Shown here one piece after another: positions 3,622-17,339 of a stretch of DNA of 64,000 nucleotides. The translations under genes and the position numbers were made by a program. The notes under the pieces are model-generated. The model searched no databases. It worked only from the letters and a program-made list of their open reading frames with translations, and was not told where the DNA came from. The stretch is from Gemmatimonadota bacterium (lineage in GTDB: Bacteria; JAAXHH01), in contig JAPOYX010000081.1 in assembly GCA_026706345.1 (NCBI GenBank), positions 1 through 64,000 of the forward strand. Direction: 5' to 3'. Position 1 is the first letter of the stretch; each line of letters begins with the position of its first letter.

Positions 3622-4794
3622 CTACGAACCGAAGGCCCGTCTGCGGCGCATGTAGGTCGGCACATCCAGTCCGTTGTTGTCGACCGCATCGTCGGAAGGG
3701 TCGCCGCCGGCCACTTCTTCCGTATCGAACCCGTTGCGCTTGACCCGCTGAAAGGCCGGAGTTTCCAGCTCGTCCGGGCGGTCGGGCTGGAATTTCAGGA
3801 TGTTGCGCGTCAACATCTCGTCATGGGAAGCAATCGCATGATCCAGTCCCGTGGCGATCAACGTTACCCGGATCCTGCCCTCGAGGCTTTCGTCGAGGAC
3901 CGTCCCCATGATGATGTTGGTATGCCCCGCGGCCGCCTGTACCGTGGTCATTACCTCTTCCACCTCGAACAGGGTCATATCCTCGCCACCCGATATATTG
4001 AGCAGAATGTCCTTGGCGCCGTCTATGTCCATGTCCGCCAGCAGCGGGTGCTTCATGGCCCGTTCCGCGGCTTCGAGTGCGCGCTTGTCTCCCTCGGCTT
4101 CGCCGGTTCCCATCAGGGCTTCGCCCTTGTTCTCCATGGTTGTCTTGATATCGGCGAAATCGACGTTGATCAGTCCGGGCAGGGTTACCAGATCCGATAT
4201 GCCGCGCGTGGCCTGCAACAGGACCTCGTCGGCTACCTTGAGCGCGTCTTTGAAAGACGTGGTGTGGCTTACGGTTTCTTTGAGTTTCTGGTTAGGAATA
4301 ATGACTACCGTATCCACATGTTCCTTTAATGCGGCCAGGCCGGTTTCGGCGTTCGCCGCCCGCTTGGGCCCCTCGAAGGCAAAGGGCTTGGTCACGATCC
4401 CGACGGCCAGCACGCCCAGTTCCTTCGCGATCTGCGCGATCACCGGCGCGGCACCGGTTCCCGTACCTCCACCCATGCCCGCGGTAATAAAGACCATGTC
4501 GATATCGGTCAGGTGTTCCGAGATGACGTCCCGGCTTTCCTCCGCGGACTTTCGGCCCACGTCGGGGTTGGCGCCGGCGCCCAGTCCCCGGGTGATTTCG
4601 TGTCCCAGTTGAATCTTGTACTTCACATTGGACCCTGCCAGGTCCTGCGCGTCCGTGTTTGCGACGAGGAAATCCACACCCGGAACGCCGATTTCAACCA
4701 TGTGGTTGACGGCGTTTTTGCCCGCACCTCCCACGCCGATGATTTTCATGCGAGCAAACAGTCCCGGTTCCGCATCGAAATCGAAAGTAGACAT
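3622..4794 (-). CDS. ftsZ: Cell division GTPase FtsZ
   Basis: A 390-residue tubulin homologue that polymerises at midcell to form the Z ring. The signature GGGTGTG (about residues 105-112) sits inside GMGGGTGTGAAP, the N-terminus carries GVGGAGKNAVNHM for GTP binding, and the protein ends with a DVPTYMRRRR tail. That tail matches the conserved C-terminal peptide which docks on FtsA. The start at 4794 (MSTFDFD) was chosen because GGAGG lies 6-7 nt upstream; an in-frame ATG 11 codons earlier has no such site. It is the last gene of the dcw cluster, 71 bp after ftsA. Confidence 0.97.
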   Translation of the reverse strand: MSTFDFDAEPGLFARMKIIGVGGAGKNAVNHMVEIGVPGVDFLVANTDAQDLAGSNVKYKIQLGHEITRGLGAGANPDVGRKSAEESRDVISEHLTDIDMVFITAGMGGGTGTGAAPVIAQIAKELGVLAVGIVTKPFAFEGPKRAANAETGLAALKEHVDTVVIIPNQKLKETVSHTTSFKDALKVADEVLLQATRGISDLVTLPGLINVDFADIKTTMENKGEALMGTGEAEGDKRALEAAERAMKHPLLADMDIDGAKDILLNISGGEDMTLFEVEEVMTTVQAAAGHTNIIMGTVLDESLEGRIRVTLIATGLDHAIASHDEMLTRNILKFQPDRPDELETPAFQRVKRNGFDTEEVAGGDPSDDAVDNNGLDVPTYMRRRRAFGS

Positions 4795-4865
4795 TATTGC
4801 CTCCGTTCGTTGGTGTAAAAGCAGCAACCTGCAAGACCTTCATAATCACGACGCATCGTGGGGTG

Positions 4866-6086
4866 TTACAGCATGGCCACGATCCGGCTTCTCACACGAT
4901 CCAGCCATCCTCCTTCCGTACCATTTCGCCACTCCTTTCCCGACGGGTTGCCCATGACGTAGCGCAACAGGCCCGCACCCGTCGCGTACACTGGCGCGTC
5001 CTCATCTCTGGCCAGGCCGGTAACTTCAACTGGCGCACCGATTTTCGCGGACATGCCGAAGACCTGTTCCGCCAGTTTCGCAATGCCCGGTATCTGGGCG
5101 CCACCGCCTGTGATTACGATACCGGTACCGATCAGGTGTTCGTATCCACTTCTCCTGATCTCCTGCCGGGCGAGGATCAGAAGCTCCTTTATCCGCGGTC
5201 CTGCGACGAACGCCAGTTCTTCCCGTGTCACCTGCCGCGACGGACGGCCGCCGACTCCGGGCACTTCGATCATGTCCTCCCTGTCCGGACGGACATAGAC
5301 CGCACTTGCGTAGCGGCGCTTTATTCGTTCGGCATCCTCATGGGGCGTGCGGAGCCCGATCGCGATATCGTTCGTCAGATTGACCCCACCGGCCGGGATT
5401 ACCGACGAATGCCGGATGCTGCCCCCGTGGAACAACGCGACGCCCGTGGTTCCTCCTCCCAGGTCGAGGAGAACGACACCCAGTTCCTTCTCATCGCTTG
5501 TGAGCACCGCGTGGCCCGCCGCCATCGAATCCAGGACGAGGTCCGTGACGCGCATTCCGGACTCCATGATGCATTTACGGACATTCTGAAGGGGGGTAAC
5601 CGCTCCCGTGACGATGTGCACCAGCACTTCGAGACGGACGCCCGACATGCCGCACGGGTCGGGAATCCCGTGCTGGTCGTCCACGATGTAGTCCTGCGCG
5701 ATCACGTGGAGGACCTGGCGGTCGGGTAAAATCTTCAGGGCCGTCGCGGAGTCATGCGCGCGTGCAACGTCCTCTTGCGTCACGCCGCCGTCCCCGTCGG
5801 ACGCGATGGCCACGGCGCCTCTGCTGTTGACACTTTCGATGTGCTCGCCGGAGATCCCGGCGACGACGTCGTTTACCTTGACTCCCGCCGCCTGTTCCGC
5901 CGCATCGAGCGCCTGCATGATCGTGCGGGTGGCCTCGTCCATATTCACCACGACACCTCGCCTGATGCCGTGTGAAGGACAGGTTCCTTCGCCCAGAATA
6001 TGGAGGCCGTCGTCTGTCATCTCGCCGATCAGCACGACGGTCTTGGTAGTGCCCATGTCGAGGGCGGCTATGAATTCACCGGCCAT
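4866..6086 (-). CDS. ftsA: Cell division protein FtsA
   Basis: An actin-like ATPase of 406 residues that tethers FtsZ to the inner membrane. ALDMGTTKT at the N-terminus is phosphate loop 1, LDLGGGTTGVA is phosphate loop 2, and ITGGGAQIPG is the adenosine motif. The C-terminal segment WLDRVRSRIVAML is a classic amphipathic membrane-targeting helix. It lies between ftsQ (17-bp gap) and ftsZ, the standard dcw order. Length and domain order are typical of FtsA. Confidence 0.96.
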   Translation of the reverse strand: MAGEFIAALDMGTTKTVVLIGEMTDDGLHILGEGTCPSHGIRRGVVVNMDEATRTIMQALDAAEQAAGVKVNDVVAGISGEHIESVNSRGAVAIASDGDGGVTQEDVARAHDSATALKILPDRQVLHVIAQDYIVDDQHGIPDPCGMSGVRLEVLVHIVTGAVTPLQNVRKCIMESGMRVTDLVLDSMAAGHAVLTSDEKELGVVLLDLGGGTTGVALFHGGSIRHSSVIPAGGVNLTNDIAIGLRTPHEDAERIKRRYASAVYVRPDREDMIEVPGVGGRPSRQVTREELAFVAGPRIKELLILARQEIRRSGYEHLIGTGIVITGGGAQIPGIAKLAEQVFGMSAKIGAPVEVTGLARDEDAPVYATGAGLLRYVMGNPSGKEWRNGTEGGWLDRVRSRIVAML

Positions 6087-6103: not shown

Positions 6104-6946
6104 CTACGAACGCCGCTCCGGAGACCGGGCGGACACGATCGGCCGGACAATCACCTGGTCCTTGAACCGCAGATCGATCAGCCTGGTCCTGATGGCGTCG
6201 GCTTCCAACCGGTCCACCGTTCGTTTCAGCATCTCGATCTTCCTGGGGTAGTGGCCCGTCCCGAATCTTATGGCCAATCCGCCTTCGACCATGTAGGCGA
6301 TCGGATCATGCTGGCTCGATACGTGAACCTCGGACAATTCGTCATACAGCCCCGGAGAAAGCGTTCTCAGCACTCGCATCAGGTAGAGCGCGCGGCCCAC
6401 CTCGGGATTAACCAGCATGGCATCCCTGAGCGTTTCGAACACTTGGTCCTGCCGGGTCGTGTTGTCTTGCGCGGGGTGGTCGCCTGGCGCGCCGACCGTG
6501 ATCACGGGGAGGTCCGGCAGTCCGTTTCCCGGCGACAGCGGGATCAATTCGGCGCGCTCGGTGACGCCATAGAGTCGATTCAGCTGTACGAAGGCGACAG
6601 GCTGCAGTTCTTTCACCCACACGACGACGGTACCGGGCAGCCGCCTCGTCAGCGCGACGTGTGCGAACCGGCGGTCCAGCATCAGCCGCCGTTCGATCGC
6701 CGCCAGGTTGGCCGACCAGATGTTCCGCCCCCTTTCAAGGCCGGAAATCGTGACGATGTCTTCTTTGCCGACGTTCATGTTCCCCGTTACGACAATGGTG
6801 TCCAGATTGAACGCCGGCGAGGTTTTCGTCCACTTGGACAATGTCAGGCTTCCAAGGATAATCCCCGTTGTCGCGCCGGCCGTGAGCAGGACGATGGCCA
6901 GTCCGCGCACCAACCGGTATATGGGCCGCTTCCTGTTCAGATTCAT
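6104..6946 (-). CDS. ftsQ: Cell division protein FtsQ (POTRA domain)
   Basis: A 280-residue bitopic membrane protein. A short basic N-terminus (MNLNRKRPIYRLV) is followed by one transmembrane helix (about residues 13-35), then a POTRA-like region with NLDTIVVTGNMNVGKEDIV and the FtsQ beta domain with RRLPGTVVVWVKE. FtsQ links early and late divisome proteins through FtsB/FtsL. Its ATG overlaps the murB stop (ATGA), so the two are translationally coupled. Sequence similarity is naturally low in this family; position between murB and ftsA supports the call. Confidence 0.9.
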   Translation of the reverse strand: MNLNRKRPIYRLVRGLAIVLLTAGATTGIILGSLTLSKWTKTSPAFNLDTIVVTGNMNVGKEDIVTISGLERGRNIWSANLAAIERRLMLDRRFAHVALTRRLPGTVVVWVKELQPVAFVQLNRLYGVTERAELIPLSPGNGLPDLPVITVGAPGDHPAQDNTTRQDQVFETLRDAMLVNPEVGRALYLMRVLRTLSPGLYDELSEVHVSSQHDPIAYMVEGGLAIRFGTGHYPRKIEMLKRTVDRLEADAIRTRLIDLRFKDQVIVRPIVSARSPERRS

Positions 6947-7869
6947 ACTACACCCGATTTCATCACGCGCACCTCGAGTTCAAGGGCTACGCCGGTCCGC
7001 TCGAAGACGCGCTCGCGAACCAGATCGATCAGCCGCAACGCGTCCGTAGCCGTAGCGCCTCCCTGGTTGACAACGAAATTCCCGTGGACGTCGGACACCC
7101 GGGCCCCGCCGACCTGAAGGCCCTTGCAACCGGCCGCGTCGATCAGCCTTCCGGCCTTGTCGCCCATCGGGTTCTTGAACATGCATCCCGCACTCTGGTC
7201 CGAGGACGGCTGGGTGCGCTTTCTGTACTCGGTAAAGACACGGATGCGTTCATACACGTTTTCCGGTTCGTCCGGCGTCAATCTGAACACGGCTCCGGTC
7301 ACGATGCTGTCCCGGTCGATACCGCTTTCCCGGTAGGAAAACCCGGCCTCGGAAGCCCTGATCGTCACGACGTTACCGGGAGGCTGAAGCAGCTCTACGG
7401 ACTCCAGCACCCGGCTCAGGTCACTCCCGTGGGCTCCGGCATTGCCCCGGATGGACCCGCCGACCACCCCGGGTATCCCCGTGCAAAACTCCAGTCCGCT
7501 CAGTCCGGCCGCGGCTGCGGACCAGGCGAGTCGAGGCAGGCTTACTCCGGCGCCCGCCCGGATGTATTCACCTTCCTGTTTCAAATGCCACAGCGTCCCC
7601 TCCGCCGGAGTCGAGCCCCGTATCTTGATCACCAGCCCCCGGAAGCCTTCGTCTGAAAAGAGGACGTTGCTTCCGTTTCCCAACACCAGCCAGGGTATCT
7701 CGCGCACGTGAGCGGCGGTGACGACTTCCAGCAGTTCCGACCGGGTTTCCGGCAGACACATCGCGTCGGCCGGTCCCCCGACCCGGTAGGTGGTATGCCG
7801 GTCGAGGCCCTCGTTGCGCCGAAGCCGGTCCGCGGGGACCAGCCCGCTGAGGATGTCGAAGATCTCCAT
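6943..7869 (-). CDS. murB: UDP-N-acetylmuramate dehydrogenase
   Basis: A 308-residue FAD enzyme that reduces UDP-GlcNAc-enolpyruvate to UDP-MurNAc with NADPH in the cytoplasm. Visible family signatures are NTTYRVGG-like HTTYRVGGPAD near the N-terminus, VLGNGSNVLFSD (FAD binding), GIPGVVGGSIRGNAGAHG and, near the C-terminus, GCMFKNP followed by KGLQVGGARVSDVHGNFVVN. Residue order matches the compact type I/II MurB fold. It lies 4 bp after murC and overlaps ftsQ by 4 bp within the dcw operon. Confidence 0.95.
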   Translation of the reverse strand: MEIFDILSGLVPADRLRRNEGLDRHTTYRVGGPADAMCLPETRSELLEVVTAAHVREIPWLVLGNGSNVLFSDEGFRGLVIKIRGSTPAEGTLWHLKQEGEYIRAGAGVSLPRLAWSAAAAGLSGLEFCTGIPGVVGGSIRGNAGAHGSDLSRVLESVELLQPPGNVVTIRASEAGFSYRESGIDRDSIVTGAVFRLTPDEPENVYERIRVFTEYRKRTQPSSDQSAGCMFKNPMGDKAGRLIDAAGCKGLQVGGARVSDVHGNFVVNQGGATATDALRLIDLVRERVFERTGVALELEVRVMKSGVV

Positions 7870-7873
7870 GGGT

Positions 7874-9274
7874 CTAGGCCCCGCGTTTCCGCAACAGTTC
7901 GCATATCTGCCGTCCGACCTCGTCGATGTCCCCGGCGCCGAGCGTCAGTACCATATCCCCCTCCTCGAGATCGTCCACGAGGGCGGCCGCCACCCGGTCT
8001 TTGTCGGAGACGTACGCGACGTCCCCGCCGAATTCCCGCGAAGCCTGGACGATCATCTCGCCTGTAACCCCCTCCCGCGGCGTTTCCCTGGAAGGGTAGA
8101 CGTCCGTCACGACCGTCCGGTATGCCGGGAATAGCCCGAGAACGCGTCCGAATTCACGGCGCATATGCTGCGTACGGCTGTACAGGTGCGGTTGGAACAC
8201 CACGAACATGCGCCGGGCACCCGTGTTGGAAAGGGCGAGCAACGCCGCCTCGATTTCCACGGGATGATGGGCATAGTCGTCCACCACCGCGATGCCCTGT
8301 ATCCTGTCCAGCACCTCGAAACGTCTCTTCAGTCCCCGGTATGCCGCCAGGGCCGCCACGGCCCGCTCGACGGGTATTTCGAGATAATCGGCCACGCCGA
8401 TGGCCGCCAGGGCGTTGAGCAGGTTGCACTCGCCCGGTTGAGGCAATACCAGTCGACCGGCCGGAACATCCCGCACGTACACCTCGGCGGTAACGCGCCA
8501 ACCCTCCGATACCACCCGGTCGGCCCGGATACAGGCATGCCTGGAAAGCCCATAGGTGACCAGCCGGCGCCGCAGCGCAGCACTTACTCTGCTTATGCCC
8601 GGGTCGTCCGCGCACACGAATACCGGCCCGTCCACGGGCACGAGATGGGCGAAGGCGACGAAGGCTTCATCAATGGCCTCTTGCGAACCGTAGTACTCCA
8701 GGTGGTCAGCATCTATCGAAGTGATCACGGCTATCTTCGGGGCCAGGGCATGGAACGATCGATCGTATTCATCGGCTTCCACGACCATCCAGGCGCCGCT
8801 TCCACGCCGCACGTTGGATCCGTTTTCCGTCATGATCCCGCCTATTGCGGCGGTCGGGTCCAGGCCGGCGGCGGAGAGCACCCTGACGATCATGGCCGAC
8901 GTAGAAGTCTTTCCGTGGGTGCCCGCCACGGCGATGCCCTGCGTCCCGCGCATCAGCGTGCCGAGCAGGTCCGCGCGGGTGACGGCAAGCTGGCCCCGCC
9001 TGCGGGCGGCCGCGAGCTCGGGATTGTCCGCCGGTATGGCGGAAGAGTATACGATCAGATCGGCCCCCGACGCGTTATCGGGCTTGTGGCCGCAGAAGAC
9101 GGAAGCGCCGAGAACGCGAAGACGTTCCGTCAGCGGCGTACGCCGGAGATCCGACCCGCTTACTTCGTATCCGTAATCAAGCATCAGCTCACCCAGTCCG
9201 CTCATTCCGATTCCGCCGATACCGATGAAATGCACGCGGCGGCATGCAAGCAAAGACTTACGCCGGTCAGTCAT
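7874..9274 (-). CDS. murC: UDP-N-acetylmuramate--L-alanine ligase
   Basis: A 466-residue Mur ligase that adds L-alanine to UDP-MurNAc using ATP. IGIGGIGMSGL near the N-terminus is the MurC-type UDP-binding glycine motif, GTHGKTST (about 116-123) is the P-loop, and DDYAHHPVEI is the MurC-specific signature of the C-terminal half. It overlaps the ftsW stop by 8 bp. In most dcw clusters murG lies between ftsW and murC; here the overlap leaves no room for it. Confidence 0.96.
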   Translation of the reverse strand: MTDRRKSLLACRRVHFIGIGGIGMSGLGELMLDYGYEVSGSDLRRTPLTERLRVLGASVFCGHKPDNASGADLIVYSSAIPADNPELAAARRRGQLAVTRADLLGTLMRGTQGIAVAGTHGKTSTSAMIVRVLSAAGLDPTAAIGGIMTENGSNVRRGSGAWMVVEADEYDRSFHALAPKIAVITSIDADHLEYYGSQEAIDEAFVAFAHLVPVDGPVFVCADDPGISRVSAALRRRLVTYGLSRHACIRADRVVSEGWRVTAEVYVRDVPAGRLVLPQPGECNLLNALAAIGVADYLEIPVERAVAALAAYRGLKRRFEVLDRIQGIAVVDDYAHHPVEIEAALLALSNTGARRMFVVFQPHLYSRTQHMRREFGRVLGLFPAYRTVVTDVYPSRETPREGVTGEMIVQASREFGGDVAYVSDKDRVAAALVDDLEEGDMVLTLGAGDIDEVGRQICELLRKRGA

Positions 9275-10409
9275 ACTGGAGTCTCTGTCGACGGTAGGTC
9301 ATTCTGGAAATATTCAGCAGGATCCCTATGCTCATCATGCAGAACAGCAGCCAGGAACCTCCGTAACTCAGAAAGGGGAGCGGCAGCCCCGTAGTGGGCA
9401 GCATGCCCGTCACCACTCCGATGTTCACCAGTACGTGCAACGCGATGAGCATGGTCAGTCCCGATGCCAGGAAGAAGCCGAAGTCATCGGGCGCCTGGCG
9501 GGCGATGCGGATCCCTCGCCAGGCGAAGACGCCAAAGAGGCCCAGTACCGCAAGCGACCCCAGAAATCCGAGTTCTTCGCCGATCACCGCGAACACGAAA
9601 TCCGTATGGGGATCGGGAAGAAACAGGAACTTCTGCCGGCTTTGCCCCAGGCCGATGCCGAATACGCCCCCCGTGCCCAGGCCGATCAACGCCTGTTGCA
9701 ACTGGTAATCCGCGCCTTGCAGATTGACGGCCTGTTCGACGGAACTGCTGAAAAACCGGTCGATATAGGTCATGAGACGCTGGCGGCTGTGCGTGGACGA
9801 ATACAGCCTGAAGAAGAGGACCGGGAGCATGATCCCCACGGCGCACGCGAGGTGCAGCAGACGGGCCCGGCCCACGTACAGCATCGCGAATGCCGTTACC
9901 GCCAGGACGATCGCCGTGCCGTAATCCGGCTGCAGCACAATCAACAGGCAGGTGGCTCCCGCCACGGCAAGTCCGGGCAGCAATCCGACAACAAACCTCT
10001 CCATCACGTTCTGTTGCTTCGCCAGCCAGTAGGCCAGGAACAGCACCAGGGCGATCTTGATCCCTTCGGCAGGCTGAATCGTCATGGAGAACAGATTCAA
10101 CGTGCGCGTCGCGCCCCGGATGGTCAGCCCGATGCCGGGGACAAACAGGAGCAGAAGAAACACCAGGCCGACGGCCATCCATACCGGGGCCCACTTTTGC
10201 TGTTTCTGGTAATTCAGGCTGGCGAACAGGACCAGGATGACGATCCCGAGGATCAACCTGACCAGGTAGCGTCTTACGAAGAATCCGCTGTCACCGGAAA
10301 ACATCTCTTCGGCAACGGCCGAACTCGCGCTGTAGACCATCACCGATCCCACGCCCAGCAGGAGCAGGGACGAGACCAGCAAGGGAAGATCTATGCGCTG
10401 ACGTAACAC
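9267..10409 (-). CDS. ftsW: SEDS glycosyltransferase FtsW
   Basis: A 380-residue polytopic membrane protein of the SEDS family (FtsW/RodA/SpoVE), which polymerises lipid II into septal glycan together with FtsI. About ten hydrophobic segments are seen. Family features include QPDYGTAIVLAVT, the extracytoplasmic loop QLQQALIGLGTGGVFGIGLGQ and the C-terminal TTGLPLPFLSYGGS. The start is GTG at 10409, preceded by GAGGGG. It lies 4 bp after murF, so the usual mraY-murD pair is missing between them. Assigned as FtsW rather than RodA because of its place in the dcw cluster. Confidence 0.94.
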   Translation of the reverse strand: MLRQRIDLPLLVSSLLLLGVGSVMVYSASSAVAEEMFSGDSGFFVRRYLVRLILGIVILVLFASLNYQKQQKWAPVWMAVGLVFLLLLFVPGIGLTIRGATRTLNLFSMTIQPAEGIKIALVLFLAYWLAKQQNVMERFVVGLLPGLAVAGATCLLIVLQPDYGTAIVLAVTAFAMLYVGRARLLHLACAVGIMLPVLFFRLYSSTHSRQRLMTYIDRFFSSSVEQAVNLQGADYQLQQALIGLGTGGVFGIGLGQSRQKFLFLPDPHTDFVFAVIGEELGFLGSLAVLGLFGVFAWRGIRIARQAPDDFGFFLASGLTMLIALHVLVNIGVVTGMLPTTGLPLPFLSYGGSWLLFCMMSIGILLNISRMTYRRQRLQYD

Positions 10410-10413
10410 GGGT

Positions 10414-11832
10414 TTACCCCTCTACGGGCTTGCAAAGCGCTGTTGTCATGGATTCCACGACGGTTTCCATTCGCATGCCGCGCGATCCCTTGACCAGGAC
10501 CACGTCGCCGTCTCTGATTTCCGCCAGTGCCACGGCGGCCGCCTCGTCGTTGGATGAACAGGCCACGACGCGAGAGGCCCGCATGCCTTCGTCCACGGCG
10601 GCTTCGGCGATGTCGCGGGCCAGATCGCCCACCGTGATGATCCGTTCCGCCACGCCGGCGGCGTGTTTTCCGATTTCCCTGTGCGCCGCCTTGCCTGTCC
10701 CGCCCAGTTCCAGCATGTCCCCGAGGACGGCCAGTTTACGGCCGTCGGTGGCCGCCAGCGCGTCCAGGGCCGCTTTCATGGACGACGGATTGGCATTGTA
10801 CGTATCGTCGATCAGGTGCACGGCGCCCAACTGCCTGTATTCCATCCGCATGGGCGTGGGACCTACGCGCTGCAGCGCACGCGCGATGCATTTGTCGTCG
10901 ATTCCGAAGAGCCTGCCCACCGCTACGGCTGCCACGGAGTTCATGACCTGGTGATCCCCCATCAGGTTTGTGCGAAAGACGGCTCCATTCGACAAAGTAA
11001 AAATCGATCCCGACAGTTCGGTCCCGGAGCGGACCAGCCTGACATCAGCTCCGGCGCCGCGCCCAAACGTAGTCACCTGCGCCGGACTGCGGCCGGACTG
11101 CTTCATGACGAGAAGGTCGTCGGCGTTCAGTATCGCGCGGCCATCCGCCGGCAGGTGGTCCAGGATCTCGCCCTTGGCCCGGGCGATTCCTTCGATCGAC
11201 TCGAAAAACTCGATATGCGCGGGTCCCACGTTGGTGATTACACCCACGGACGGACGGGTCATGCGGGCCAACCGGTCCAGTTCGCCTGCCCGGTTCATAC
11301 CCAGTTCGAGCACCGCGGCGCCGTGGCCTTCCTCCAGAGTAAACAGCGCCTCGGAGACGCCCAGTTGACTATTCAGGTTCCCCGGCGTCTTGAAAACCCG
11401 GTAGCGCTCACTCAGCACAGCGGCAATCATGTTCTTCGTAGTAGTCTTTCCGTTAGAACCCGTGACCGCGATTACCGGAAGCTCGAATCGGCTTCGGTGC
11501 CAGCCCGCGAACGCCTGCAGCGCCGGAAGTACTTCGGGCACGACGATCCGCGCGCCGTCCGGAGATTCACGGTCCGGCCGGCCCTCGTGCCAGTCGGCCG
11601 CAACCAGGGATGCGCAGGCGCCCGATCGCATAGCTTCAGGCACGAAATCGTGACCGTCGTAACGTTCGCCAGCAATCGCGACGAACAGGTTGCCCTCCCG
11701 GATACGCCGGGTATCTGAACAAACGCCCGTGATCCGGCTGTCACGAAGTGCCGGGACGGGAACGTGCAGTCTTCCGCCCGTGATGCCGGCTATTTCCAGC
11801 AGCGTGGGAGCCGCCCCGTTGCGATTATCCAT
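10414..11832 (-). CDS. murF: UDP-MurNAc-tripeptide--D-alanyl-D-alanine ligase
   Basis: A 472-residue Mur ligase that adds D-Ala-D-Ala to complete the pentapeptide precursor. GSNGKTTTKNM (about residue 125) is the ATP P-loop, followed by TPGNLNSQLG and ELGMNRAGEL, which are typical of MurF, and IDDTYNANPSSM in the C-terminal half. I place the start at 11832 (MDNRNG), which overlaps the murE stop by 8 bp and has GAGG upstream; an ATG 13 codons earlier would extend further into murE. It is followed 4 bp later by ftsW. Confidence 0.94.
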   Translation of the reverse strand: MDNRNGAAPTLLEIAGITGGRLHVPVPALRDSRITGVCSDTRRIREGNLFVAIAGERYDGHDFVPEAMRSGACASLVAADWHEGRPDRESPDGARIVVPEVLPALQAFAGWHRSRFELPVIAVTGSNGKTTTKNMIAAVLSERYRVFKTPGNLNSQLGVSEALFTLEEGHGAAVLELGMNRAGELDRLARMTRPSVGVITNVGPAHIEFFESIEGIARAKGEILDHLPADGRAILNADDLLVMKQSGRSPAQVTTFGRGAGADVRLVRSGTELSGSIFTLSNGAVFRTNLMGDHQVMNSVAAVAVGRLFGIDDKCIARALQRVGPTPMRMEYRQLGAVHLIDDTYNANPSSMKAALDALAATDGRKLAVLGDMLELGGTGKAAHREIGKHAAGVAERIITVGDLARDIAEAAVDEGMRASRVVACSSNDEAAAVALAEIRDGDVVLVKGSRGMRMETVVESMTTALCKPVEG

Positions 11833-13306
11833 AGTGTGCCTCGAGACATTCCCGGGCCTTGATCCGGTCATCGAACTCGATGTGCGATTCGCCCACGATC
11901 TGGTAGGCCGTGTCCCCTCTTCCGGCGATCAGCACGGTGTCCCCTTCACCCGCTTCGCTCAGGGCCTTGTGGATCGCTTCGCCGCGGTCCTGGACGATAT
12001 GGGACCGGACATGGGGCAGGAGACCGGGCTCGATGTCCCGTATGATCCGGTCTGGCGATTCCGTTCTCGGGTTGTCGGTCGTCACGATGACCACGTCGGC
12101 ATGGGTGGACGCCGCCCGGGCCATAAGCGGCCTCTTCCCCGGATCCCGGTCCCCGCCGCAACCGAACACGACCGTCAGGTTTCCCCGGGTCCATTCGCGG
12201 CAGGCTGACAGCACGGCGCCGAGCGCGTCAGGCGTATGGGCAAAATCCACGAGCACGTTGAAGGGCTGTCCGGCGTCGACGCGCTCCAACCGCCCCGGAA
12301 CCCTTACACCGGCCATGGCCCGGTTCATCAGGTTGCAGTCGATACCGAATCCGAGTCCCACGGCAACCGCCCCCAGGGCGTTGTAAGCGTTGAAACGGCC
12401 CAACAGCGGCAGGGTCAGTCTGAAAGAGAGGCCGGATTGAACCTGTACTTCGAAGGAGGTCCGGTCCGCGTAGTAACCTATCGGCCCCGCTCTGCGGACG
12501 TCCGCCTTCTTGTCCAGTCCGTATGAACGCACCCGCGCGCGCGCGGCGTGCTTGAAATGGACGTAGGCCGGATCATCCATGTTCAGTGCGGCGTGGCCGT
12601 CCTCCTCGAGGTATTCGGAGAAAAGCAACATCTTGGCTTCCCGGTAAGCGTCGAAGGTCTTGTGGTCGTCCAGATGTTCCCGGGAGAGATTCGTAAAAAC
12701 ACCCGTGTTGAACCGCAGGCCTGCCAGCCGCTGCCAGACCAGGCTGTGCGAGGATACTTCCATGACGGCCCATTCGGCCCCCCGGTCCCGTATCTTTCTC
12801 AAGGTGCGGTGCAGTTCCATCGGATAGGGTGTGGTATGACCCAGCTTCCAGTCGAGCATTTCGCCCATGAACCGGCTGCCCAGTGTGCCGATTCCGCCCA
12901 CGGACCAGCCGCATTCCCGAAGTATGGCCTCGATCAGCAGGGATACGGTCGTCTTTCCGTTGGTTCCCGTAATGCCGATCAGACGCAGGCCGCTCGCCGG
13001 TTGTCCGTGGTACGCGGCGGCCATCAGACCCAATGCCCTGGAGGTGTCCGGGACGATTACCACGGTCGCGTCATCGAGGTGCTCCGTACTTTCCTGGACC
13101 ACAACCGAGGCGCCCCGCGCCACCGCGTCGCGAGCGTACCTGTGGCCGTCGCGGCCCGATGGCTCGCGCAGCGCGACGAAAACGTCGCCGGGCTCTGCGG
13201 ACCTCGAATCGTGTACAATGGTTCTTATTTCCTGATCCGTCTGGTCCGCCCGGCCTGTAACCGTTTTTCGAGGCAGCGCATCCAGCAATTTCGACAGCTG
13301 TATCAA
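11825..13306 (-). CDS. murE: UDP-MurNAc-L-Ala-D-Glu--2,6-diaminopimelate ligase
   Basis: A 493-residue Mur ligase that adds the third amino acid of the peptidoglycan stem peptide. GITGTNGKTTVS is the P-loop (about 112-123). The specificity motif DNPR (about residues 409-412, in TTDNPRTESP) is the form associated with meso-diaminopimelate, indicating a Gram-negative-type stem peptide. A DDHKTFDAYREAK segment carries the conserved MurE carbamylated-lysine region. It lies between ftsI (50-bp gap) and murF (8-bp overlap). Confidence 0.95.
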   Translation of the reverse strand: MIQLSKLLDALPRKTVTGRADQTDQEIRTIVHDSRSAEPGDVFVALREPSGRDGHRYARDAVARGASVVVQESTEHLDDATVVIVPDTSRALGLMAAAYHGQPASGLRLIGITGTNGKTTVSLLIEAILRECGWSVGGIGTLGSRFMGEMLDWKLGHTTPYPMELHRTLRKIRDRGAEWAVMEVSSHSLVWQRLAGLRFNTGVFTNLSREHLDDHKTFDAYREAKMLLFSEYLEEDGHAALNMDDPAYVHFKHAARARVRSYGLDKKADVRRAGPIGYYADRTSFEVQVQSGLSFRLTLPLLGRFNAYNALGAVAVGLGFGIDCNLMNRAMAGVRVPGRLERVDAGQPFNVLVDFAHTPDALGAVLSACREWTRGNLTVVFGCGGDRDPGKRPLMARAASTHADVVIVTTDNPRTESPDRIIRDIEPGLLPHVRSHIVQDRGEAIHKALSEAGEGDTVLIAGRGDTAYQIVGESHIEFDDRIKARECLEAHYG

Positions 13307-13356: not shown

Positions 13357-15426
13357 CTAGTTGTAGGGACTGCATTCGATGAGGCACTGGTCGCCCGCGT
13401 TGAGCACGCGGCCCGGCGCGGGAATCTGGCGCCGGACATAGCCCTTTCCCACGATGGTCGCTTCAATACCCTGTTCGGCCAGGGTCTTGACCGCTTCCCG
13501 TATGCTCATACCGATCACGGACGGCAGCAGTATCCGCGCCCGTTCCTGCCTGCCGCCGACGCCGAACCCTTCGATTTCCCAGGGGCCGCCGAGCGAAAGC
13601 GCTTCCTTGCGCGCGGATCCGCCGTCGCCTGGATCCGGCATATACGGAGCGCGGCCGGAGCCGGCATTCGGCTTGATGGAGGCCAGATGCAAAGGCAGAC
13701 CATCCTCGGATTCGGGTACCGATTCTACGGGTCCGCCGGGTAAATGGACGAGACGGCGAACGATTTTGTTGAAAACAGGCGCGGCCACCGATCCTCCGTA
13801 GAAACCGCGTTTTTTCGGTTCGTCGATCATGACGAGCACGACGATTTCCGGATTCTCCGCGGGAAACATACCGACAAACGACGACCGGTAGTTCCGGGTA
13901 TATCCCCTGCCGTCCTCACGCGCCTTCCAGGCCGTACCGGTCTTTCCGGCGACTTTGAATCCCGGTACCGCGGCCTTTGTGCCCGTACCCCGGTCCACCA
14001 CGCCGGCGAATACGCCCAGCAGGGTTTCGGCGGTTTCTTCTTTCATTACCCTGCGAACGACCGTCCTTGGCGTGGATTCCACGGATCCGTCGTTTCTCAA
14101 GATGGACTTGACGATTCGGGGTTGCAGGAGCAGCCCACCGTTGGCTACCGCGCAATAGGCGGACGCAAGTTGTACCCCGGTAACGGAAACCCCGTAGCCG
14201 ATGGACATTGCGGGAAGGGTCGACCGGGACCAGTCCGCCCTTTTATGCAGGATCCCCCTGGCCTCGCCGGGAAGCCCCACGCCCGTCTTTATGCCGAAGC
14301 CGAATGCCCGGGTGTATTTGAAGAACGCCCGCTCACCGAGCGTCAGGGCGATTTTCACGGTACCCACGTTGCTGGAATGCTCGATGACTTCCCGCACGCT
14401 CAGTTCGTCGAAGACTTCGTGGTCCGAAATCGTCTGAGAACCCAGTTCGATCCGGCCTCCACTGGTGTCGATCCGGTCCTCCAGCGAGAACGCGCCGGTC
14501 TCCAGGGCCGCGGTCGCTGCGACAATCTTGAAAGTCGAACCAGGTTCATATATATCCACCACCGGCCGGATCTTCTGGGCTTCGAAGGGAAAACGGCCCG
14601 GCGTGTTCGGATCGAAGTTCGGCGCACTTGCCATAGCCAGAATGTCGCCGTCGACCGGATCCATCATGATCACCATGCCACCGAGCGCCTCGTGCCATGC
14701 TATCGTCTCTTCCAGCACCTCTTCCGCGGCCATCTGGGCCGCTATATCGATCGTCAGCACGACGTCCGCGCCATTCTGCGCCGACTTCTGGTAGGAATCC
14801 AGCCACGAATACGCCCGTCTCTGGGCGTCGATCTGAACCACGCTGTATCCTTCTATACCGGATAGCAACTGGTTGTGTTCCATTTCGAATCCGGCCTGGC
14901 CGATGCCGTCCACCGCGAAACCCAGTACCTGGCCGGCGGCGGTCCGGTAGGGATAGACCCGCCGGGCTTCCTTTTCCATGCGGATGTAGGATTCGAACCG
15001 GGGATAGGTGGAGAGCCTTCTTATCCGTTCGCTGGTTTCAGGATTCGCCCAGCGTACCAGGTACCTGAAATCGGAGGTTCCGGATATCCGATCGATGATA
15101 TGCTGGGGACGCTCTCCCGTGATCTGGGAGAGTTGAACGGCCAGATTTCCGACGTCGGAGGCATTCAACTGATCCCAGTCGAGATCCTGTATGCCAAAGG
15201 AGTCGAACTCGACGCTCAGCGCCAGGGCATGCCGGTTGCGATCGAAGATACGGCCCCGGCGGGGGTCAATGGTGACGACCCGGTGCTGCTGGTCACGCGC
15301 TCGCTGCCTGTAGGTCTCGCCGTCGCGAATCTGAATCAGTGCGATACGAATCCCGAGACCCGCACACAGAACCGCACCGACCACGACCAGGAGGGTCAGC
15401 CTGCGTATACAGGATTTCGCGACCAT
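13357..15426 (-). CDS. ftsI: Septal peptidoglycan transpeptidase FtsI (PBP3) with PASTA domain
   Basis: A 689-residue class B penicillin-binding protein. It has one N-terminal transmembrane helix, a PBP dimerisation domain with GRIFDRNRHALA, and a transpeptidase domain with the three active-site motifs: STFK (SxxK, about residue 296), SSN (SxN, about 351) and KTGTA (KTG, about 495). The C-terminus (about 630-689) is a single PASTA domain starting VIGMSIREAV, more usual in Gram-positive or spirochaete-like FtsI/SpoVD than in E. coli PBP3. It crosslinks septal peptidoglycan alongside FtsW and is placed between ftsL and murE. Confidence 0.95.
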   Translation of the reverse strand: MVAKSCIRRLTLLVVVGAVLCAGLGIRIALIQIRDGETYRQRARDQQHRVVTIDPRRGRIFDRNRHALALSVEFDSFGIQDLDWDQLNASDVGNLAVQLSQITGERPQHIIDRISGTSDFRYLVRWANPETSERIRRLSTYPRFESYIRMEKEARRVYPYRTAAGQVLGFAVDGIGQAGFEMEHNQLLSGIEGYSVVQIDAQRRAYSWLDSYQKSAQNGADVVLTIDIAAQMAAEEVLEETIAWHEALGGMVIMMDPVDGDILAMASAPNFDPNTPGRFPFEAQKIRPVVDIYEPGSTFKIVAATAALETGAFSLEDRIDTSGGRIELGSQTISDHEVFDELSVREVIEHSSNVGTVKIALTLGERAFFKYTRAFGFGIKTGVGLPGEARGILHKRADWSRSTLPAMSIGYGVSVTGVQLASAYCAVANGGLLLQPRIVKSILRNDGSVESTPRTVVRRVMKEETAETLLGVFAGVVDRGTGTKAAVPGFKVAGKTGTAWKAREDGRGYTRNYRSSFVGMFPAENPEIVVLVMIDEPKKRGFYGGSVAAPVFNKIVRRLVHLPGGPVESVPESEDGLPLHLASIKPNAGSGRAPYMPDPGDGGSARKEALSLGGPWEIEGFGVGGRQERARILLPSVIGMSIREAVKTLAEQGIEATIVGKGYVRRQIPAPGRVLNAGDQCLIECSPYN

Positions 15427-15438
15427 AACGGGTATTCC

Positions 15439-15861
15439 TCATCGGGTATCCACTCTAGCCGCCGGGTAAGACGCCAGGATCAACGCGTCATCCGTCGGTT
15501 TTCCCGCGATCGCCCTCACATCGGGCCCGGTGTGGGCCAAAGCCATTGCCGTGTCGACCGCATCCATGGTCACGACCTGTCCGACCGCCGCATGACCCAG
15601 TTCGAAACGGTTCATGGCCATGGTTTCGTTCCGGAGCTGTTCCGAAAGTCGCACGATACGTACGTGCAGGTAGGCGCTTTCCTTCTTCATGGCTTCCTTC
15701 CGGTGCTCCAGTTGGAGGATCTCCCGCATCAGTACCCTGGTTTCCACCTGGTGCCAGATGTAGCCCATACTCAACGATGTTGCCAGCGCGATCGTACCGA
15801 TCCAGCTGATCAGTTGTCCCATGTAGGCGTGATCGCTGCGGAATCTTAAAGCGGATTTCAT
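15439..15861 (-). CDS. ftsL: FtsL-like division protein
   Basis: A 140-residue protein with a basic N-terminus, one transmembrane helix (about residues 17-35), then a heptad-rich segment (about 36-80, REILQLEHRKEAMKKESAYLHVRIVRLSEQL) able to form the coiled coil by which FtsL pairs with FtsB. The remaining tail is unremarkable. Primary sequence is poorly conserved in this family, so the call rests on topology and on location between rsmH and ftsI, the invariable ftsL slot. Confidence 0.8.
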   Translation of the reverse strand: MKSALRFRSDHAYMGQLISWIGTIALATSLSMGYIWHQVETRVLMREILQLEHRKEAMKKESAYLHVRIVRLSEQLRNETMAMNRFELGHAAVGQVVTMDAVDTAMALAHTGPDVRAIAGKPTDDALILASYPAARVDTR

Positions 15862-15897: not shown

Positions 15898-16860
15898 TCA
15901 GGCTGCGGGTTGGTTGTTCGGCAAGCGTTCAATCATTCGAAACCTGGCACTTCGGGCCCGTGGATTTGTCGTGACCTCTTCCCGTGACGCCACGACGGGC
16001 CGTTTCGTGTGCAGCACGGCGACGCGCCTGTGCCGACACACGCATTGCGGAAGGCCGGGCGGGCAAATGCAGTCCGAAGCCCAGGTTTCGAACGTCCGCT
16101 TGACCATGCGATCCTCTAAAGAATGATAGGAGATGACGCCGAAACGACCCTGGTCGCTCAACAGGGGAAGCATGGTCTCCAACGCCGTTTTCAATCTGTC
16201 CAGTTCCTTGTTGACGGCAATTCGAAATGCCTGAAACACCCGGGCGCAGGACTTGGTCGCCCACCGGCGGCGGACCGCGGACCTGATCGTATCAGCCAGC
16301 CTGGCGGTGGAGGTCATCGGTGCCTTTGCGCGGGTTCTGACGATCGCGTTCGCGACACTGCGCGCCTGCCTTTCCTCGCCGTATTCCCGTATGATCCGCT
16401 CGATTTCATCCCTGGAACTCCCATTGACGATATCGGCCGCAGTAAACGCCTCTCCCCGGTCCATGCGCATGTCAAGCGGACCTTCCGCCTGGTATGAGAA
16501 ACCCCGGCCATGTGAATCGATCTGGTGGGATGACACGCCCAGGTCCAGCAGCACGCCGTCTACCCGGGAGACGCGTTCCGCGTCCAGGACGGACGCCAGT
16601 TCCGTAAAATCGCGATGCATGACTTTAACCCGGGGGTTTCTTCCGCCCGCGATTCTCGCACGGGACACGCTGACCGCTTCAGGATCCCTGTCGAGTCCGA
16701 TCAGCCGTCCGGACTCGTCAAGCCGATCCAGAATGGCGCGCGCATGACCGCCTCCGCCTACGGTACCGTCCACGTATATGCCGGATTTGTTCCAGACGAG
16801 CATTTCGGCTACCTTCCCGGTAAGAACGGGAACATGGATGTACGTATCTGCCAGCCCCAT
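15898..16860 (-). CDS. rsmH: 16S rRNA (cytosine1402-N4)-methyltransferase
   Basis: A 320-residue SAM-dependent methyltransferase (formerly MraW) that modifies C1402 in the ribosomal decoding centre. Signatures are HVPVLTGKVAEML at the N-terminus, the SAM-binding DGTVGGGGHARAIL, LDLGVSSHQID, and RRWATKSCARVFQAFRIAVN-like helix region, with SYHSLEDRMVKR near the C-terminus. The start at 16860 (MGLADTY) gives the normal family length; in-frame ATGs at 16887 and 16899 also exist between it and mraZ but have no convincing ribosome-binding site. Confidence 0.94.
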   Translation of the reverse strand: MGLADTYIHVPVLTGKVAEMLVWNKSGIYVDGTVGGGGHARAILDRLDESGRLIGLDRDPEAVSVSRARIAGGRNPRVKVMHRDFTELASVLDAERVSRVDGVLLDLGVSSHQIDSHGRGFSYQAEGPLDMRMDRGEAFTAADIVNGSSRDEIERIIREYGEERQARSVANAIVRTRAKAPMTSTARLADTIRSAVRRRWATKSCARVFQAFRIAVNKELDRLKTALETMLPLLSDQGRFGVISYHSLEDRMVKRTFETWASDCICPPGLPQCVCRHRRVAVLHTKRPVVASREEVTTNPRARSARFRMIERLPNNQPAA

Positions 16861-16898
16861 GGTTATTCCACTTCCGAAAGACCTCATGGGTGGGAACA

Positions 16899-17339
16899 TC
16901 AGACGAACAGGGACTCCGCGATCGATTCGTACGTGTGCCCTGATTCGTTCATCGCTTTCTCGTATTCCCTGGGACTCCAGAGTTCGAAATGGTCGAGCGT
17001 TCCGACGATCAGCACCTCGGTTTCGATGCCGGCGAGTTCGATCAGCTGCCGGGGCAGGGCGATGCGCCCCTGCTTGTCCATGGAAACCGCCACTGCCTGG
17101 GACGAGAGCATCCTGATGAAGATCCGCGTGTTCTGCCTGGTGATGGGCAGTTCGCGCAAGCGGGTGTCGATCTGTTCCCATTCGTCGATCGGATAGACAA
17201 AAAGACATCCGTCGAGTCCCCGCGTAATGATCAGGGTGTCATCCTCGTCGGTCCGGATGTGCTTGCGAAACTTCACAGGGACATTCACCCGGCCTTTATG
17301 ATCCACGGTGTATGTGTATGAACCCAGGAAGTTGACCAT
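16899..17339 (-). CDS. mraZ: Transcriptional regulator MraZ
   Basis: A 146-residue AbrB-like regulator built from two SpoVT/AbrB repeats: the first contains YTVDHKGRVNVP with the DxxGR motif, the second SMDKQGRIALPRQL. MraZ forms rings and binds direct TGGGN repeats in front of its own operon, repressing the dcw cluster. A matching triple repeat lies about 100 bp upstream of this start codon. It is the first gene of the cluster. Confidence 0.96.
   Translation of the reverse strand: MVNFLGSYTYTVDHKGRVNVPVKFRKHIRTDEDDTLIITRGLDGCLFVYPIDEWEQIDTRLRELPITRQNTRIFIRMLSSQAVAVSMDKQGRIALPRQLIELAGIETEVLIVGTLDHFELWSPREYEKAMNESGHTYESIAESLFV

Follow-up and report, generated by a model that had tools for sequence, protein, structure and literature searches.

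A HEAT-linked murG-mraY module apart from a dcw cluster that lacks mraY, murD and murG in a Gemmatimonadota genome, and its relatives across bacteria

MraY and MurG perform the two membrane steps that yield lipid I and lipid II and, to our knowledge, it is unsettled whether they act together with MurJ as one complex. Canonically, their genes belong to the mraY-murD-ftsW-murG block of the division and cell wall (dcw) cluster. Co-immunoprecipitation of MraY and MurG in E. coli has been reported (PMC5039524), and a scaffold role has been suggested for MurG (PMC6420597). The fusions listed in PMC6420597 (MurE-MurF, MurB-MurC, MurG-MurC, MurC-Ddl and MraY-MurG) join neighbouring steps and are taken as a sign of complex formation. 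MraY, in turn, carries in its fifth cytoplasmic loop the highly conserved HHH motif, PXHHHXEXXG (PMC5039524; also PMC4790310), proposed to contribute to the specificity for UDP-MurNAc-pentapeptide (PMC5039524). There is also the example of MglA, an alternative MurG of Kitasatospora/Streptomyces encoded outside dcw and able to supply lipid II, which is described as an extra copy beside the dcw murG (PMC8092295). The present analysis concerns a 64,000-nucleotide stretch of a Gemmatimonadota genome (GenBank assembly GCA_026706345.1, contig JAPOYX010000081.1, positions 1 to 64,000; the whole stretch is called the window hereafter), whose dcw cluster lacks mraY, murD and murG, together with a module located elsewhere in the same genome, in which a MurG with C-terminal HEAT repeats is encoded directly before MraY.

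The same activities as those of the canonical block are expected from this module, to judge from a MraY that scores above the TIGR00445 cut-off, the MurG fold and the retained catalytic residues. Unlike the canonical block, it lies outside dcw, its MurG bears HEAT, two conserved His residues (one of them the third of the HHH motif) are missing from its MraY, and both proteins fall into separate tree groups. It resembles MglA in comprising a MurG homologue outside dcw that could supply lipid II, but in this case there is no second MurG, and the HEAT-linked one is paired with mraY and HEAT, a term with 0 occurrences in the main text of PMC8092295. With the known Mur fusions it shares the joining of neighbouring steps, although HEAT and MurJ are outside the list in PMC6420597 and the fusions here combine MurG, MurJ and HEAT in two different orders; the precedents therefore lower the novelty of fusion as such, and not that of the HEAT and MurJ parts. 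A literature search of titles and abstracts, with subscription papers mostly outside its coverage, found neither a HEAT partner of MraY or MurG nor a MurJ-MurG fusion.

The dcw cluster lies on the minus strand in the interior of the contig (64,905 bases in total; all dcw coordinates are window positions) and follows the conserved order save for the three absent genes, for none of which there is space within it. The gap between murF (10414..11871; TIGR01143, 406.6 bits) and ftsW (9267..10409; TIGR02614, 345.7 bits), the usual slot of mraY and murD, measures 4 bp (10410..10413), and ftsW overlaps murC (7874..9274; TIGR01082, 442.2 bits) by 8 bp (9267..9274) where murG would usually stand, the three matches being above cut-off. 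These absences and junctions, given in a preliminary description made from the sequence alone, proved exact in the open reading frames (ORFs) and NCBIfam scans, and its view that the junctions are long settled is borne out by the relatives, which do not carry the three genes in these slots: murF, ftsW and murC follow one another without an intervening gene in 15 of the 16 searched genomes of the window's order (G000-G009 and G011-G015), the sole exception being G010 (87% complete), where a dcw ftsW was not found. In G006, the entire cluster, from the mraZ-like gene to ftsZ, sits on a 2.87-Mb contig, and mraY, murD and murG are absent there too. The window's arrangement is unusual when set against control mraY loci (n=96), which have murF upstream in 76 cases and murD downstream in 74 within the stretch fetched; among 15 outgroup ftsW loci, murG adjoins ftsW in 11 and murD is found on the other side in 11.

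Where, then, are the missing genes? In the window's genome (4.49 Mb, 293 contigs, 97.86% complete), the MraY family domain and the C-terminal domain of MurG were each matched once. Contig C147 (locus L009) carries murG (706 aa) and, 7 bp further, mraY (369 aa), the latter being a MraY equivalog by TIGR00445 (301.9 bits, cut-off 192.05), and then a vWA-domain gene; this arrangement is constant throughout the window's order. Apart from both, murD is on contig C41 (TIGR01087, 381.3 bits, cut-off 211.95), and an mpl gene is on contig C167. The preliminary description had supposed a deletion, with the genes elsewhere or a changed pathway as the consequence. A genome search located all three outside dcw, murD alone and murG together with mraY, and missing pathway steps are thereby rejected. 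The dispersal of murD agrees with that supposition, whereas murG and mraY form a HEAT-linked unit for which displacement fits better, and what follows is more likely a change in the enzyme complex. The absence of mraY and murG from dcw is thus probably explained by an alternative, HEAT-scaffolded lipid II module elsewhere in the genome, which supplies both steps and has displaced the dcw copies.

The relocated MurD (511 aa; L011:7252-8787, contig C41) contains two inserts of low complexity, rich in Gly and Glu and each about 30 residues long. The vWA-domain protein directly after mraY has 364 residues (L009:11019-12113, contig C147), and such a gene occupies this place in 11/11 own-order loci with sufficient reach, being not seen in other lineages. 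Outside the window's order, murD lies upstream of ftsW in 11 of 22 module-bearing genomes with a located murC; the remaining stretches are too short to tell, so that an absence of murD from dcw may or may not be peculiar to this order.

The module is not confined to the window's relatives. A scan with the HEAT alignment gave 35 loci in named records, whose holders comprise Latescibacterota, own-order bins labelled Gemmatimonadetes or Zixiibacteriota, Thermodesulfobacteriota (Desulfoferrobacter suflitae and Desulforhabdus among them), an Acidobacteria bin and unplaced bins. A genome survey found a HEAT match at 1e-12 in at least 40 of 384 genomes, namely 16 from the own order and, among 368 others, 24 with 15 family codes; the figure is a lower bound, since a further case, G146, missed the threshold and came to light via its neighbours. 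The tally comprises 63 loci, of which 16 belong to the own order, 23 are from named records and 24 from the survey. In 60 of them the HEAT frame immediately precedes mraY and shares its strand, its end being separated from the MraY domain by -36 to +261 nt; of the other three, L100 stops at a contig end, and mraY lies elsewhere in G123 and G393. MurG and HEAT form a single frame in 42 loci (L108, with a partial MurG, among them), nine have a MurJ-MurG-HEAT frame and one a MurG-MurJ-HEAT frame, three keep murG, HEAT and mraY as separate genes, six have HEAT-mraY without adjoining murG, and in two HEAT is interrupted by the contig end. Pfam confirmed the MurJ domain in one locus per fusion order (L101 and L244), and a separate murJ adjoins the module in three further loci (L105, L238 and L239). 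HEAT is therefore genetically coupled to MraY and MurG, and in some lineages to MurJ, and the genomics of the module is firm. In L246 and L248 (family f54), some 270-390 residues without a Pfam match precede MurG in the MurG-HEAT frames, part of which may be non-coding. In the chromosome-level metagenome assembly G057, the MurJ-MurG-HEAT frame appears split between distant sites (L173/L174), with MurG model positions 142-217 in both; the two sites did not match when their DNA was compared, and as the split may be an artefact or a real break, G057 was not used as evidence.

Module-bearing genomes have, as a rule, no other enzyme for either step. A single MraY above cut-off is present in 26 of 27 genomes (in the exception, a contig end leaves just a fragment) and in 30 of 30, some genomes being counted under two handles in these sets (e.g., G022 and G063), and strong MurG matches number one per genome save in G057, where murG is split. 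A second canonical MurG or MraY above the cut-offs was not found beside the module; the six HEAT-mraY genomes carry a dcw-type MurG in place of MurG-HEAT, located between ftsW and murC in four, by murC in one and by murJ in one. TIGR01133, the MurG equivalog, is exceeded in 1/27 module-bearing genomes, by the dcw-type MurG of G047. Below the cut-offs there are weak MurG-like matches (107-115 bits) in three family f96 genomes. Weak MraY-like matches reach 97.6 and 89.3 bits in the two genome sets, and we take them to be WecA-type. Outside the own order, murC could be located in 22 module-bearing genomes, and ftsW immediately precedes it in 20, the other two being G047, which retains murG there, and L177 (G043), which has no ftsW by murC and was counted as a miss.

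The MurG of C147 has its MurG domains at about residues 36-364 (PF03033, 93.8 bits, and PF04101, 77.8 bits, both above the gathering score), with HEAT repeats towards the C-terminus (HEAT_2, 7.6e-30), and would be expected to make lipid II from lipid I. The predicted structure of a 714-residue relative (L082; mean predicted local distance difference test score, pLDDT, 84.8, with low confidence at 1-28 and 430-457) consists of a MurG fold, a disordered linker at 430-457 and a helical solenoid beyond residue 460. Its MurG part superimposes on P. aeruginosa MurG (3s2u) with a Z score of 34.1 and a root-mean-square deviation of 2.5 over 329 aligned residues, and a fold search with the model was dominated by MurG-type folds (model residues 29-428), which does not cover the HEAT part. 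Within HEAT, a conserved stretch includes GGD, VGF and RRN. For a 1199-residue MurJ-MurG-HEAT frame, the MurJ part of the model was poorly folded (mean pLDDT 72.5, predicted template modelling score 0.55), and no domain arrangement is claimed.

The HEAT-linked MraYs share a changed loop. In the window genome's MraY the motif reads PLHHAFQYRG: the first two His are kept, the third is lost and Glu is replaced by Gln. Counted from alignment columns, the third His is present in 93/94 controls against 3/50 HEAT-linked MraYs (L099, which has no loop, is outside the motif counts), and the motif Glu is Gln in 41/50 HEAT-linked sequences against 5/94 controls; the first His is kept in 50/50, and the second is lost in six. 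Another His, at position 68 of the window genome's MraY, occurs in 95% of controls and in 0 of the HEAT-linked rows compared. Residues D118, D119, N200, D203, D206, D275 and H334 are at least 90% conserved in both control and HEAT-linked rows, and the window genome's MraY has the catalytic Asp and Asn and the first His whose roles are given in PMC4790310. Divergence alone does not explain the loop change, because the controls include very divergent MraYs, and since the HEAT-linked rows form one group the changes may correspond to few events. Two controls, L410 (G151) and L421 (G101), break the HHH motif otherwise, as QHH and HHI. In L236 and L237 (family f130) and in L093, MraY has an insert of about 90-100 residues between model positions 165 and 166.

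In phylogenetic trees the module's enzymes stand apart. With the loop columns removed, 51 HEAT-linked MraYs were split from 94 controls by one branch (Shimodaira-Hasegawa-like approximate likelihood ratio test, 100), and in a more careful tree of 42 HEAT-linked and 45 randomly chosen controls the separating branch had a support of 100/99. For these comparisons, L335 (the gene of L427) was excluded from the controls, L411 (G146) was shifted from the controls to the HEAT group due to its neighbours murG and HEAT, the HEAT rows L075 and L089 are one gene, L082 and L085 were taken as genes of G008 and G001, and the control rows L401 and L419 come from the same genome; the careful tree excluded 23 control rows (long branches, among other reasons), controls of 330 residues or fewer and 9 HEAT near-duplicates. 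In the MurG tree, 45 HEAT-linked MurGs form one group (support 100), with the six dcw-type MurGs of the HEAT-mraY genomes outside it. It is this split of HEAT-linked MurG and MraY from the dcw type, in trees that are unrooted, that makes displacement by an alternative module fit better than a move of the copies native to the lineage.

The arrangement in the window's order would then be that of an alternative module formed by MurG with a C-terminal HEAT solenoid, a divergent MraY and the vWA protein, murD having presumably moved separately; we infer that the dcw copies were displaced by the module and did not give rise to it. The fusions and the gene order further point to a complex of MraY, MurG, HEAT and MurJ, so that the enzymes of lipid II synthesis and export may work as one. 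In such a complex, the scaffold role would be held by a dedicated HEAT domain, whose solenoid could bind MraY from the cytosolic side, close to the loops that have changed (the HHH loop among them), while MurG would be tethered to MraY by the flexible linker; lipid I would be handed to MurG, and lipid II onward to MurJ. A bolder extension, quite possible if somewhat short of probable, is that this MraY represents a second type of lipid I synthase, with a remodelled loop requiring a HEAT subunit and in complex with MurG and MurJ, that has displaced the dcw enzymes in several phyla; the HEAT subunit would perhaps be part of the UDP-MurNAc-pentapeptide site.

Several observations weigh against displacement and a dedicated complex. 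The bootstrap of the careful MraY tree was not fully settled, and the trees are unrooted, with many weak or long inner branches and no close module-free relative included; they therefore give neither the direction nor the number of transfers and do not decide between displacement and in-place divergence. The MurG of C147 misses the MurG equivalog TIGR01133 (207.1 bits, cut-off 250.25), HEAT repeats are generic (their profile also hits numerous unrelated HEAT scaffolds as well as artificial alphaRep binders), the three HEAT-linked MraYs retaining HHH all belong to family f96, in G123 and G393 (one family) mraY is apart from MurG-HEAT, and most module-bearing genomes are metagenome assemblies. 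The state of the trees also favours plain relocation, in which the dcw mraY and murG moved jointly, murG gained HEAT and the sequences diverged, with no functional significance other than a broken-up operon; the dispersal of dcw genes is known, for instance in Cyanobacteria (PMC8871954). Nonetheless, this appears unlikely, as lineages with different phylum labels share the HEAT-mraY neighbourhood and have their enzymes in a single MraY group and a single MurG group; independent moves would not lead each time to an identical partner and an identical loop change. As for a misassembled or contaminated window, a thought that 293 contigs and an estimated contamination of 4.61% could raise, its chance is negligible: the junctions and the module recur in other, independent genomes from its genus, family and order, and an assembly artefact is ruled out because the relatives show the same murF-ftsW-murC junctions.

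Could HEAT instead be a localisation or regulatory tag (e.g., towards the cytoskeleton) for MurG and MraY, sitting off the MraY active site, with the loop as a mere lineage marker? HEAT solenoids are generic protein-binding scaffolds, and the first His and the catalytic residues are retained, all of which makes this possible; it is nevertheless doubtful, given that the six loci with HEAT beside mraY and no murG place the tie with MraY, and that the most-differing columns include two His conserved in controls, one of them in the proposed substrate-specificity loop (PMC5039524). That the changed motif is the one proposed for UDP-MurNAc-pentapeptide specificity (PMC5039524) would also suit a module making a different lipid-linked precursor, with an altered stem peptide or sugar and a loop reflecting another substrate. 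This is improbable, since nearly all of these genomes have no other MraY or MurG, the window's genome has the full murB-murC-murD-murE-murF set, and six genomes pair a HEAT-linked MraY with a dcw-type MurG. The natural MurJ-MurG-HEAT and MurG-MurJ-HEAT frames beside mraY are direct test objects for a MraY-MurG-MurJ complex, and a whole MraY group without the third His, nearly always with a HEAT partner, makes the role of the HHH loop testable. Furthermore, MraY is an antibiotic target, and a subtype with a changed active-site loop therefore bears on the generality of MraY inhibitors.

The remaining genes of the window's dcw cluster complete its minus-strand order, which by ORFs and NCBIfam scans is mraZ-like, rsmH, ftsL-like, ftsI-type, murE, murF, ftsW, murC, murB, ftsQ, ftsA and ftsZ. 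Matches above cut-off were obtained for murE (11825..13306; TIGR01085, 466.3 bits) and murB (6943..7869; NF010480, 326.5 bits), and ftsA (4866..6086) matches TIGR01174 with 418.8 bits. The match of ftsQ (6104..6946) is weak (NF004039, 32.4 bits, 5e-8, under cut-off), and the gene is named with the aid of its place in the cluster; ftsZ (3622..4827) is an ORF with 95% identity to the final cluster gene of G006, named by sequence and place. The ftsI-type penicillin-binding protein (13357..15426) has TIGR02214 as its top match (408 bits, under that model's cut-off), and the small ftsL-like gene (15439..15861), without a match in the family scans, is named by position alone. The ORF at 16899..17339, whose translation matches the ORF preceding rsmH in G006, is presumably mraZ-like. 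It overlaps, in another frame, the first ~110 codons of the rsmH ORF (15898..17208; TIGR00006, 319 bits, residues 122-428), whose true start is internal, so that a longest-ORF annotation of window positions 15898-17339 would misplace the rsmH start.

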